Shown here: piece after piece, positions 9,911 to 13,371 of the stretch
Layout: every line of letters begins with the position of its first letter
Position numbering within the stretch: the first letter of the stretch is position 1
NCBI GenBank assembly: GCA_036273715.1
Contig: DASUHB010000074.1
Span: forward strand, 1-64,000
Length of the DNA stretch: 64,000 bases
Origin: Gemmatimonadaceae bacterium
GTDB taxonomy: Bacteria > Gemmatimonadota > Gemmatimonadetes > Gemmatimonadales > Gemmatimonadaceae
Direction: 5' to 3'
Translations under genes and position numbers: made by a program
The notes under the pieces: model-generated
What the model saw: only the letters and a program-made list of their open reading frames with translations
Databases searched by the model: none
Told to the model about the DNA's origin: nothing

Positions 9911-10129
9911 TCAGAGCTCGCCGCTGTCCATCAGCCGGCGCGCGAGCGCATCCAGTGTTTGCGGCGTGTCGTAGGCGCCGCTGCGCAGTCGCCGCTTGAT
10001 CTCATCGACCTGACGGGTCGAGATCGAACGTGCGCCCGACCAGGGGGACCGGCTGCGGGCGAGAGCGCCATTGCGATCGCGATTTTCGCGCGGGTCGCCG
10101 GCGTCGTTCCAACGCGGTGTGGTCATCAT
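9911..10129 (-). CDS. Small FlgM-like anti-sigma factor candidate
   Basis: A 72-residue protein. The N-terminal half is polar and disordered-looking. The C-terminal part STRQVDEIKRRLRSGAYDT plus DALARRLMDSGEL resembles the sigma-28-binding helices of FlgM. FlgM holds FliA inactive until the flagellar hook is complete and is itself exported. The call is supported by context: a sigma-54 activator is divergent to it and a FliA-like sigma gene lies about 1.9 kb away. The match is short and could be fortuitous; a related DUF of unknown role is the alternative. Confidence 0.5.
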   Translation of the reverse strand: MMTTPRWNDAGDPRENRDRNGALARSRSPWSGARSISTRQVDEIKRRLRSGAYDTPQTLDALARRLMDSGEL

Positions 10130-10273
10130 GCCATGATGATCGGTCAGTCCGCGCGGAACTTTAGCGGCCTCTAGCGCTGAACTACCCGGCGCATGGCGAG
10201 GGCGCCGATTCCGCCCGGCAGTCGTGTCTCGGAAATTGTTGCCGCTCGCCGAGTCGGTGCGTCATCCAGACGC

Positions 10274-11701
10274 ATGGCTACCATCCTATGCGTCGATGAC
10301 GATGAATCGATCTCGCTGCTGCTCGCCGAGACGCTCAAGCAGGCTGGGCACGAACCGCTGAACGCGGCCAACGTGCCGGAAGCGCTGGCGCTTCTCGCGC
10401 GCGGCGGCATCGATCTCATCATCTCGGATTATCGTATGCCCGGCAACACCGGGCTCGATCTGCTCGCGCATCTCGAGCGCGAGGGCATCGACACGCCCGT
10501 GATCATGATGACCGGCTACGCGAGCATCGAGCACGCGGTTGCATCGATCAAAGCGGGCGCGGTGGACTACATCACCAAGCCGGTGCGTGCGGCGCAGCTC
10601 GAGCTTGCAGTCGATCAGGCGCTCGAGCTGGTGCGGTTGCGCCGCGAGAACGCGGCGCTCAAGCGCGAGATCATGGAAGCGCGCAGCGAGCGGCAGATCA
10701 TCGGCGAGAGTCAGGCTATTCGTCGCGCGCTCCAGTCGGCCGCATCAGCGGCGCCGACTCGTGCGACGGTGTTGTTGCAAGGCGAGTCGGGCACGGGCAA
10801 GGAATTATTCGCGCGCGCGATACACGAGTTGAGCGACCGGCGCGAGAAGCCATTCATCAAGCTGAACTGCGCTGCGCTGCCCGAGGGCTTGGTCGAGAGC
10901 GCATTGTTCGGTCACGAGCGTGGCGCGTTCACGGGTGCGCTCAAGCGAGTCGAAGGCGCGTTCGAGCGAGCGCACGGCGGCACGCTGCTGCTCGATGAAA
11001 TTTCCGAAATGCGTCTCGATCTGCAGGCGAAGCTGCTGCGCGTGTTGCAGGAGCAGGAATTCGAGCGGGTGGGCGGCACCTCGCCGATTCGCGTCGACGT
11101 GCGCGTGGTCGCGACGACGAACCGTGATCTCGCCGCGGAAGCGGCGGCGGGCCGGTTCCGTCAGGATCTGTTTTTCCGTCTCAGCGTGATTCCGGTGCGC
11201 ATTCCGCCGCTTCGCGAGCGTCTGGACGACATCCCGGTGCTGGCGCATCGCTTCGCGCTGCGCGCGGCGGCCGATGCGGGCAAGGATGTCGCCGGAATTT
11301 CGGCCGAGGCGTTGGCGCTGCTGCAGCAGCACGAGTGGCCGGGGAATGTGCGCGAGTTGCAGCACGTGATCGAGCGCGCGGTGATTCTGAGCTCGGATCC
11401 CATACTTCAGGCGCGTTCGTTAGACCAGGACACGTTCAAGAACGGACGGGCGGCTGCGCCCGTGCAGTTGGTGTCGACCAACGGCGCGACCAACGGCTCG
11501 GCCTCCGGCGCGCTCGGCGATGGCGTGGTGTTTACGTCACTGAGCCTGGACGCTGCCGAAGAGGTGTTGATCGCCAAGGCGCTCGAGGTTACGGGTCAGA
11601 ACCGGACGCGGGCGGCCGCGCTGCTCGGGATCAGCGTGCGTACGCTGCGCTACAAATTGAACGGGCCGCCGGCGGCGTCGTCGGAAGCTGCCGACGACTG
11701 A
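10274..11701 (+). CDS. NtrC-family sigma-54 response regulator
   Basis: A 475-residue activator with a receiver domain (residues 1-120; acidic pair in CVDDD, phosphoacceptor near D52 in ISDYRMPG, lysine in ITKPV), an AAA+ domain (Walker A GESGTGKE, sigma-54 contact loop GAFTGA, Walker B LLLDEISE, arginine region PLRERLDDIP) and a C-terminal helix-turn-helix (TRAAALLGISVRTLRYKL). It would activate sigma-54 promoters on phosphorylation. The start at 10274 places the methionine right before the receiver; a longer frame begins at 10193. A matching sigma-54 promoter lies 207 bp downstream of its stop, so it may activate the FliA-like gene. No full kinase gene is adjacent. Confidence 0.93.
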   Translation: MATILCVDDDESISLLLAETLKQAGHEPLNAANVPEALALLARGGIDLIISDYRMPGNTGLDLLAHLEREGIDTPVIMMTGYASIEHAVASIKAGAVDYITKPVRAAQLELAVDQALELVRLRRENAALKREIMEARSERQIIGESQAIRRALQSAASAAPTRATVLLQGESGTGKELFARAIHELSDRREKPFIKLNCAALPEGLVESALFGHERGAFTGALKRVEGAFERAHGGTLLLDEISEMRLDLQAKLLRVLQEQEFERVGGTSPIRVDVRVVATTNRDLAAEAAAGRFRQDLFFRLSVIPVRIPPLRERLDDIPVLAHRFALRAAADAGKDVAGISAEALALLQQHEWPGNVRELQHVIERAVILSSDPILQARSLDQDTFKNGRAAAPVQLVSTNGATNGSASGALGDGVVFTSLSLDAAEEVLIAKALEVTGQNRTRAAALLGISVRTLRYKLNGPPAASSEAADD

Positions 11702-11907
11702 GCCGGTGCCGGGCGCGGCAACGGTTGCCCGGTCCGGTCCGGCAATACCTGCCGCGGGGCACTCTTGCCCTGCCGTCCGGCCGCCCTCGGGCGCCGGGTC
11801 GACGCGATGCCGGCGCCCGTTCAGGGACCGCCTAACAGACACCCGCACAAGCCGTTAGGCATGCGGCGCCGCCGCCGGCGGACGCATGAAATCCGTCCAA
11901 TCGAGTG

Positions 11908-11923
11908 TGGAACACCGGTTGCT
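11908..11923 (+). promoter_or_regulatory. Sigma-54 promoter upstream of the FliA-like gene
   Basis: TGGAACACCGGTTGCT matches the consensus TGGCACG-N4-TTGCW at 10 of its 12 specified positions, with GG and GC correctly spaced. It lies about 60 bp before the sigma gene start at 11986 and just after the sigma-54 activator gene. This fits the flagellar hierarchy in which a sigma-54 activator switches on fliA. Otherwise the 11702-11985 gap holds two copies of the GTTAGGC motif and no gene. Confidence 0.7.
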
Positions 11924-11932
11924 TTTGAGGGG

Positions 11933-11946
11933 GTCGTCCGGACGAC
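11933..11946. promoter_or_regulatory. Perfect 14-bp palindrome near the predicted transcription start
   Basis: GTCGTCCGGACGAC reads the same on both strands and begins at the expected start site of the sigma-54 promoter (about 12 bp after its GC element). It could be an operator for a dimeric regulator. This is inferred from sequence symmetry only. Confidence 0.45.
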
Positions 11947-11985
11947 GCACCAGTGGTCCGGCCGGGACTCCTTCGGTGAGGCACG

Positions 11986-12747
11986 ATGTCGGACGCGGAT
12001 CTGTGGCAGCGGTTGGCGGCGGGTGACGCGCAGGGTCGCGAGCAGTTGATGGCGGCCCATCTCAGTCTCGTATACCACGTGGCGCGCGGCGTTCATCGCC
12101 GGTTGGGCGGCGCCGTGGAGCTGGACGAGCTGGTGAGCGCCGGCACGCTTGGCCTGGCCGAAGCGATCGACCGGTTCGACCCGAATCGGGGGTTGGCGTT
12201 CAGCACGTACGCGGTGCCGCGCATCCACGGCGCGATCGTGGACGAGCTGCGCCGGCTGGATCACGTGCCGTCATCGATCCGCCGCCGCGCTCGGGCGTTA
12301 GGCGCGACGCAGGCGGGGCTGGCGCACGACCTCGGCCGGACGCCGATGGCGCGGGAGACGGCGGTGCGGATGGGCGTCGACGTCGAGACGGTGAGCCGGT
12401 GGCAGGCGGATGCGGCGAGCACGGCGATGCTGCGCCTCGACGATCCGATGCCCGGCACCGGCGAGCAAGGAGAAGTGCGGACGCTGGGCGAGTCGCTCGC
12501 GGCGAGCGACGGCATTGAAGTGGAAGCGCGCCTGACGCGCGAGCAGGAGCTCGCCCACCTGCGGGCCGCGTTGCTCGAGCTGCCGGACGTCGAGCGGCGC
12601 GTGTTGACGCTGTATTTTCTCGAGGAGCTCAAGCTGCAGGACATCGCGCGGGTGCTCGAGGTGACGGAGTCGCGCGTCTCGCAGATCAAGCAGAAGGCGA
12701 TGGGCCGGCTGCGCGCGGCGCTGGCGCCGATGCGCTCGGTCGCCTAA
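11986..12747 (+). CDS. fliA: FliA-like sigma-28 family RNA polymerase sigma factor
   Basis: A 253-residue sigma factor with regions 2 (ELVSAGTLGLAEAIDRFDPNRG, FSTYAVPRIHGAIVDELRRLD), 3 (DHVPSSIRRRARALG) and 4 (LPDVERRVLTLYFLEELKLQDIARVLEVTESRVSQIKQKAMGRLR). The F-D-P-x-x-G and I-x-G-A-I/M-x-D-E-L-R-x-x-D patterns are those of FliA/WhiG-type factors rather than ECF factors. It is likely transcribed from the sigma-54 promoter described here. In flagellated bacteria this gene drives late flagellar and chemotaxis genes. No flagellar structural gene is in this window, so a non-flagellar role is still possible. A FlgM-like anti-sigma candidate is nearby. Confidence 0.85.
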   Translation: MSDADLWQRLAAGDAQGREQLMAAHLSLVYHVARGVHRRLGGAVELDELVSAGTLGLAEAIDRFDPNRGLAFSTYAVPRIHGAIVDELRRLDHVPSSIRRRARALGATQAGLAHDLGRTPMARETAVRMGVDVETVSRWQADAASTAMLRLDDPMPGTGEQGEVRTLGESLAASDGIEVEARLTREQELAHLRAALLELPDVERRVLTLYFLEELKLQDIARVLEVTESRVSQIKQKAMGRLRAALAPMRSVA

Positions 12748-12750
12748 CGC

Positions 12751-13371
12751 CTAACTCGCGCCGCGCTCGCGGCGTCGCGCCGCGGCCAGCGTCGGCATGA
12801 GGAGCTCGTAGCACGCGCCCCGCGCGGTTTCGGCGATGCCGATCGCCGGCGCGCCGGCTGCGGCCTCGTTCGATTGCGCGCCCGTCGGGCCGGTGTCGCC
12901 GGCCGTCGCACGGATGACCACCCATCGCGCATCGCCCAGCACATCCACCTGGACGCGGGTCGCGCGGACGCGTCGCGCGACGCGCATGGCGGCGATCACG
13001 AGCGCGGGCACGATGCGTCCGACATGTCCGGTGTCGACGAACGCCGGCTGCACGCCGCCGGCGACGCGAATGTCGCTGGGCGTACCCGCGACGTCGGGAT
13101 GACGCGCCGCGAGCTCGACGAGCGGGGACAGCACGTCGGCGACGTTGAGCGGTTCCGGAGGTCCCGGCGGCGGCGGCGACAGCAGGCGGAACTGCTGGAG
13201 CAGCGCATCCAGACGACCGGCTTCCGAGGCGAGCACGCTGCGCGTCGTTACGGCCGCGCCGGCGTCGCCGGCCAGGTCGGAGAGCGTCGCGATGGCCATG
13301 ACGCGATTGCTCAGCGCGTGGGTGAGACCGCGCAGCAATGCGTCGCGCACGGCGCCCCACGCGCTGTCCAA
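12751..13371 (-). CDS. Histidine-kinase-like/phosphotransferase-like protein
   Basis: A 206-residue protein. The N-terminal region LRGLTHALSNRVMAIATLS looks like a dimerisation helix with a phosphoacceptor histidine, followed by a long helix ending in a proline-rich linker (SPPPPGPPE). The C-terminal part could be a degenerate GHKL fold, but no convincing G-boxes are seen. This layout resembles ChpT-type phosphotransferases or an orphan kinase lacking its ATPase site. It starts at a TTG (13371) in a region with no better start, and it is convergent with the sigma-28 gene, separated by 3 bp. It might serve the orphan NtrC-type regulator nearby, but that is speculation. Confidence 0.5.
   Translation of the reverse strand: MDSAWGAVRDALLRGLTHALSNRVMAIATLSDLAGDAGAAVTTRSVLASEAGRLDALLQQFRLLSPPPPGPPEPLNVADVLSPLVELAARHPDVAGTPSDIRVAGGVQPAFVDTGHVGRIVPALVIAAMRVARRVRATRVQVDVLGDARWVVIRATAGDTGPTGAQSNEAAAGAPAIGIAETARGACYELLMPTLAAARRRERGAS

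Follow-up and report, generated by a model that had tools for sequence, protein, structure and literature searches.

A predicted sigma-54 to sigma-28 cascade with FlgM-type feedback in an apparently aflagellate lineage of the Gemmatimonadaceae

Introduction

In the flagellar hierarchies of Vibrio, Pseudomonas and Campylobacter, FlrA/FleQ and FlrC/FleR, or FlgR, act with sigma-54, and FliA with FlgM follows. Flagellate bacteria remove FlgM by export through the hook-basal body, and this export through the hook is the textbook coupling of gene expression to organelle assembly. FliA-family sigma factors are also found in bacteria without flagella, namely WhiG of Streptomyces, itself held by RsiG, and sigma-28 of Chlamydia; to our knowledge no sigma-54 activator stands over either of these two factors. 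In the Alphaproteobacteria, CckA-ChpT-CtrA constitutes a phosphorelay (PMC3692519). Soil genomes of Gemmatimonadota carry flagellar genes in few cases, according to one survey (PMC10581226), and our literature search found no paper on FliA/FlgM in aflagellate Gemmatimonadota.

Here we analyze a regulatory island within a window of 64,000 nucleotides (68% G+C), the whole stretch of DNA under study, from contig C74 of the MAG GCA_036273715.1 (hereafter G000; 4.34 Mb, 81 contigs, 98.7% complete), whose nearest named relatives are Gemmatimonadaceae MAGs. Comparisons were made within a genus set of six genomes (G000-G005, of which those other than G000 are 74-88% complete) and across a family survey of 126 genomes, each at least 85% complete. 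The features of the island are collected in Table 1.

Table 1. Predicted genes and sequence elements of the island, with positions in the 64,000-nucleotide window
Feature	Position	Strand	Remarks
FlgM-like small protein, 72 aa, putative anti-sigma-28	9911-10129	-	sub-threshold Pfam FlgM match
Sigma-28-type promoter TAAAGTTC-N11-ACCGATCA of the FlgM-like gene	10137-10163	-	near-perfect, conserved
Enhancer-type dyad CGGAAATTGTTGCCG	10230-10244	+	just upstream of ntrC
NtrC-type response regulator / sigma-54 activator	10274-11701	+	REC, AAA+ with GAFTGA, Fis-type HTH (Pfam)
Enhancer dyad 1 CGGCAACGGTTGCCC	11716-11730	+	tandem partner of dyad 2
Enhancer dyad 2 CGGCAATACCTGCCG	11740-11754	+	tandem partner of dyad 1
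Inverted repeat GCCTAAC-N17-GTTAGGC	11830-11860		between ntrC and fliA
Predicted sigma-54 promoter TGGAACACCGGTTGCT	11908-11923	+	GG-N10-GC spacing; conserved in relatives
14-bp palindrome GTCGTCCGGACGAC	11933-11946		covers predicted start; judged incidental
FliA/WhiG-family sigma factor, 253 aa	11986-12747	+	TIGR02479
DHp plus degenerate ATPase-domain protein, putative histidine phosphotransferase	12751-13371	-	convergent with fliA

Results

The predicted sigma-54 promoter of fliA

The initial annotation had described a sigma-54 promoter with correct GG-N10-GC spacing at 11908, lying between a sigma-54 activator gene and a FliA-like gene, and both statements are borne out by the element itself, by the domains of the activator and by the score of the sigma factor, which reaches 196.4 bits against NCBIfam TIGR02479 (cut-off 189.6) and thus belongs to the FliA/WhiG family. 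The spacing alone is meaningless, since bare GG-N10-GC occurs 1381 times in the window, where TGGAACACCGGTTGCT is the sole match to TGGNACN5TTGCW on either strand. Across the whole genome this strict pattern gave three forward matches and its reversed control 3+3, so that a strict match by itself is at chance level. As a regulon finder the pattern was rejected: the other two genome matches do not precede genes, and the control is equal.

Two things set TGGAACACCGGTTGCT apart from a chance match: its conservation, and its position between ntrC and fliA. It sits 78 bp upstream of fliA, and identical or near-identical 16-mers lie 76-78 bp upstream of fliA in G004, G005, G001 and G002, the relatives' versions being TGGAAC[AG][CT]CGGTTGCT and, in G002, TGGCGCGTCGGTTGCC. 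The element combines the GG-N10-GC core with a near-consensus TGGCACG-N4-TTGCW, and it is accompanied by upstream enhancer-type dyads, a GAFTGA activator and an rpoN gene elsewhere in the genome, as a sigma-54 promoter should be; the absence of rpoN had been named beforehand as grounds for giving up the promoter, and the presence of the gene in G000 removes them. The flagellate relative G017 carries a perfect TGGCACGGCGCTTGCT before its flagellar-cluster fliA. It is quite improbable that the match in G000 is fortuitous, in which case a sigma-70 promoter or transcription running on from ntrC would serve fliA and the NtrC-type regulator would act elsewhere. Such a reading would fit the chance rate of the strict pattern genome-wide and the weaker best sites at distant module loci, which in several genera nonetheless lie 65-117 bp upstream of fliA, although in several genera outside that of G000 the best site does not rise above shuffles; it is opposed by the retention of the 16-mer in G005, G001 and G002 amid a spacer that has diverged around it, by upstream dyads that track the adjacency of ntrC, and by the intact GAFTGA activator next door. 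On these sequence comparisons we take the predicted sigma-54 promoter of fliA to be real.

The 14-bp palindrome of the initial annotation exists and overlaps the predicted start, but the weight placed on it is unsupported: 18 perfect palindromes of this length occur in the 68% GC window, including GTCGTCCGGACGAC, which differs at one position in L002, is missing from L003 and L004, and is not conserved in G005 and G001. Being of a type common in the window and not conserved, it was rejected as an operator; the core circuit of the flagellar-style regulatory island proposed in that annotation holds without it. The inverted repeat between ntrC and fliA, the window's single closely spaced GCCTAAC/GTTAGGC pair, is kept in L002-L004 and could possibly form a terminator-like hairpin.

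The same 7-mer, GTTAGGC/GCCTAAC (often CGTTAGGC), is present in 97 copies in the 64 kb window (for example at 11830-11860, 12742 and 12749), the highest number among 7-mers matched for G+C, for which the median is 6. Stretches of 19 kb from G002 and G021 likewise contain it often (13 and 14 copies), and in stretches of G014, G018, G020 and G048 it is absent or rare. Its density recalls DNA-uptake-type signatures.

Tandem dyads and the NtrC-type activator

The start of the NtrC-type gene was placed at the conserved MATILCVDDDE rather than at 10193, as homologues in relatives begin at the same methionine; the protein scores above no NCBIfam FlbD or FlgR cut-off. Between this gene and the sigma-54 promoter lie tandem CGGCAAnnnnTGCCG dyads with 24-bp spacing, conserved as a pair in the genus. 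Of 19 loci with an adjacent ntrC, 15 have tandem dyads (spacing 17 or 24 bp) that score above shuffles (p<=0.04), as does one of 14 loci lacking that neighbour, the flagellar-cluster fliA of G042; because loci within the genus are not independent, these counts are descriptive. The perfect tandem pattern is found once in G000 and occurs in 5 of 17 genomes, there only upstream of fliA, with none for the control in those genomes. A single dyad, searched genome-wide with one mismatch, was discarded as an indicator, since it gave fewer matches than its reversed control and is uninformative; only the tandem pair is specific. From the co-occurrence we infer that the dyads are binding sites of the neighbouring NtrC-type regulator. 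The further dyad just upstream of ntrC, conserved in L002-L004 and with one change in L044, may be an autoregulatory site of that gene.

The FlgM-like gene and the output of FliA

A FlgM-like gene had been noted about 1.9 kb away, and we locate its ORF at 1.8 kb (Table 1). The C-terminal half of the protein reads IKRRLxSGxYDTPQ..DALARRL, and its best Pfam match, PF04316 FlgM (E 0.043, 14.5 bits), aligns over that half and falls below the gathering cut-off of 25 for the family. The profile is matched by 4 of 8 homologues, all eight of which share invariant R, G, Y, A and G. An attempt to establish FlgM identity by a PDB profile search returned only noise and matched no FlgM structure. Among the module loci in which a homologue was detected, most have it divergent from ntrC.

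As expected for a flgM gene, a sigma-28-type promoter lies before it, present in each of the five genus genomes that carry the module (G000, G004, G005, G001 and G002) and in G018. The strict sigma-28 pattern has two matches in the genome, one at flgM and the other not before a gene. The -10 element ends only 7 bp upstream of the ATG, so that a leaderless flgM mRNA is possible. Searches of G000 with strict, relaxed and TMAAGYT patterns yielded no further canonical sigma-28 promoter before a gene, the other sites examined in this genome lying inside predicted genes or, for L057, not before one. This points to one of three situations: a small sigma-28 regulon, degenerate promoters within it, or flgM as the main target. 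The output genes are probably non-flagellar.

A phosphotransferase-like gene and a hybrid kinase

The last gene of the island, convergent with fliA, encodes a putative histidine phosphotransferase of ChpT/Spo0B-like architecture. An alignment of nine homologues shows an invariant phospho-acceptor-type H followed by N-R, and profile searching links the protein to ZraS (E 7e-6) and CpxA. Foldseek matches its AlphaFold model (pLDDT 79) to DHp-CA units of histidine kinases, while Pfam gives the protein no match of its own and no ATPase/HATPase match; from the alignment, the ATPase half appears degenerate, with ATP binding probably lost. Three genomes (G018, G044 and G045) carry, immediately upstream of the homologous gene, a hybrid kinase of dCache-HAMP-PAS-HisKA-HATPase-REC architecture, which is the gene order expected of a phosphorelay. 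The homologues in G020 and G017 are found within a flagellar cluster. Upstream of 13371 on the - strand the frame remains open and similar (PTGQPGE.LPLD), and the codons of the genus at which a start would fit are ATT or ATC, leaving the true start uncertain.

Distribution of the island and of the flagellar marker

The initial annotation had remarked that no flagellar structural genes lie in the window and had called for a genome search, and the case proves stronger: FlhA, the one flagellar marker searched, is absent from G000 as a whole and from the five other genus genomes, which as a single-marker result falls short of showing that every flagellar gene is missing. Because this marker is absent, the sigma factor is not classed as a flagellar FliA, a class that calls for flagellar export or structural genes in the genome. 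In the family, 66 of 126 genomes have FlhA and 78 of 126 a FliA of the same kind. Comparison of the two lists gave 15 of 126 with FliA and without FlhA (G000, G004, G014, G018, G041, G044, G045, G046, G048, G049, G100, G104, G107, G121 and G126), and in all 15 fliA adjoins this NtrC-type gene, an arrangement seen at none of the nine flagellar-cluster fliA loci examined. In G003, a member of the genus that is 88% complete, no FliA match was obtained.

These counts bear on whether the organism could be flagellate after all, its flagellar genes having fallen into gaps of the assembly and the island being a flagellar regulatory locus of the ordinary kind. With 81 contigs in the MAG and other genus members 74-88% complete, there is some room for this reading, but FlhA is absent in six of six genus genomes by a search that succeeds in 66 genomes of the family, and the flagellar-cluster loci lack the neighbouring ntrC; we judge it the least probable of the explanations weighed here.

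Four FlhA-positive genomes (G016, G132, G133 and G136; loci L050, L148, L149 and L150) carry a second FliA beside a phosphotransferase-like gene. These loci have no adjacent ntrC, a FlgM-like gene lies nearby in two, and three show a sigma-54 site above shuffles; the second FliAs form one clade (support 0.997).

History and selection

In a FastTree phylogeny of 45 FliA sequences the genus of G000 and g34 form a group (support 0.98) that is separate from the flagellar FliAs, and the seven genomes of this module clade all lack FlhA; judged from the tree, the clade is old. Module FliAs of g14 and g15 lie close to flagellar FliAs in the tree, suggesting that the flagellum was lost at a later time in those two. 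FlgN-like genes occur beside the module in two FlhA-negative g15 genomes, at 831-1292 of L144 (G104; E 2e-8) and, below threshold, at 4674-5081 of L145 (G107; E 0.008).

Comparison of G000 with G005 and G001 gave dN/dS values of 0.13 for FliA, 0.07-0.08 for the NtrC-type gene, 0.2-0.3 for the FlgM-like gene and about 0.25 for the phosphotransferase-like gene (higher, at 0.50, against G002), and the range of 0.07-0.3 indicates that the island genes are maintained under purifying selection. We consider it unlikely that the island is a relic, a set of regulators left over from a recently lost flagellum and now decaying without present function. Something of this kind is what g15 looks like, where the flagellar FliA of G019 falls together with the module FliAs of G104 and G107 and the FlgN-like genes persist; the genus and g34, in contrast, form an old clade of seven FlhA-negative genomes, the dN/dS values are low within close species, and the sigma-54 and sigma-28 promoters are both conserved.

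Discussion

In the reading that we consider probable, the island forms a regulatory cascade from sigma-54 to sigma-28, with feedback of the FlgM type, that has been kept in an apparently aflagellate lineage. The best support for this circuit is the tandem dyads, the sigma-28 promoter of flgM and the phosphotransferase-like gene, none of which figured in the initial annotation. In the proposed mechanism, a kinase, which in some relatives may be the dCache-HAMP-PAS hybrid, would pass phosphate via the DHp protein to the NtrC-type regulator; the regulator would bind the dyads at 11716-11754 and loop to sigma-54 polymerase at 11908, and transcription of fliA would start near 11934. Transcription of flgM by FliA would follow, from the promoter at 10163-10137, and binding of FliA by the resulting FlgM would give delayed negative feedback. 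With the flagellar export route seemingly absent, the loop would be plain homeostatic or pulse-type feedback, or would be relieved by a route other than export.

The switch now probably runs something other than flagellum building. The more ambitious reading, that the full phosphorelay, NtrC-type, sigma-54, FliA and FlgM switch has long been kept by aflagellate Gemmatimonadaceae and rewired to serve a non-flagellar programme in which FlgM inhibits by feedback alone, free of the export checkpoint, seems to us evenly poised between true and false. If the cascade is as proposed, FliA, a FlgM-like protein and their promoters without an export apparatus would amount to a natural experiment on the switch alone and on how regulators survive the machine they once controlled. 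The finding reaches beyond one promoter, and its main point is in our view sound; the island offers a testable circuit with clear bounds, in a phylum of which very few species have been cultured.

With the hierarchies of Vibrio, Pseudomonas and Campylobacter the island shares an NtrC-type activator, a predicted sigma-54 promoter, a FliA-family sigma factor and a putative FlgM-type inhibitor with its own sigma-28 promoter. It differs from them in that its genome lacks FlhA, and thus apparently a flagellar export route for FlgM, in that activator, sigma and inhibitor genes stand together in one compact island, and in that the activator lies under every FlbD/FlgR cut-off. Like WhiG of Streptomyces and sigma-28 of Chlamydia, it would employ a FliA/WhiG-family sigma for a non-flagellar programme; unlike them, it has a FlgM-like putative inhibitor and predicted sigma-54 control. 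Its putative counterparts to CckA-ChpT-CtrA are a hybrid kinase, a DHp/pseudo-ATPase phosphotransferase, a response regulator and a link to flagellar control, whereas the regulator here is a sigma-54 activator and the putative phosphotransferase is not recognisably ChpT by sequence.
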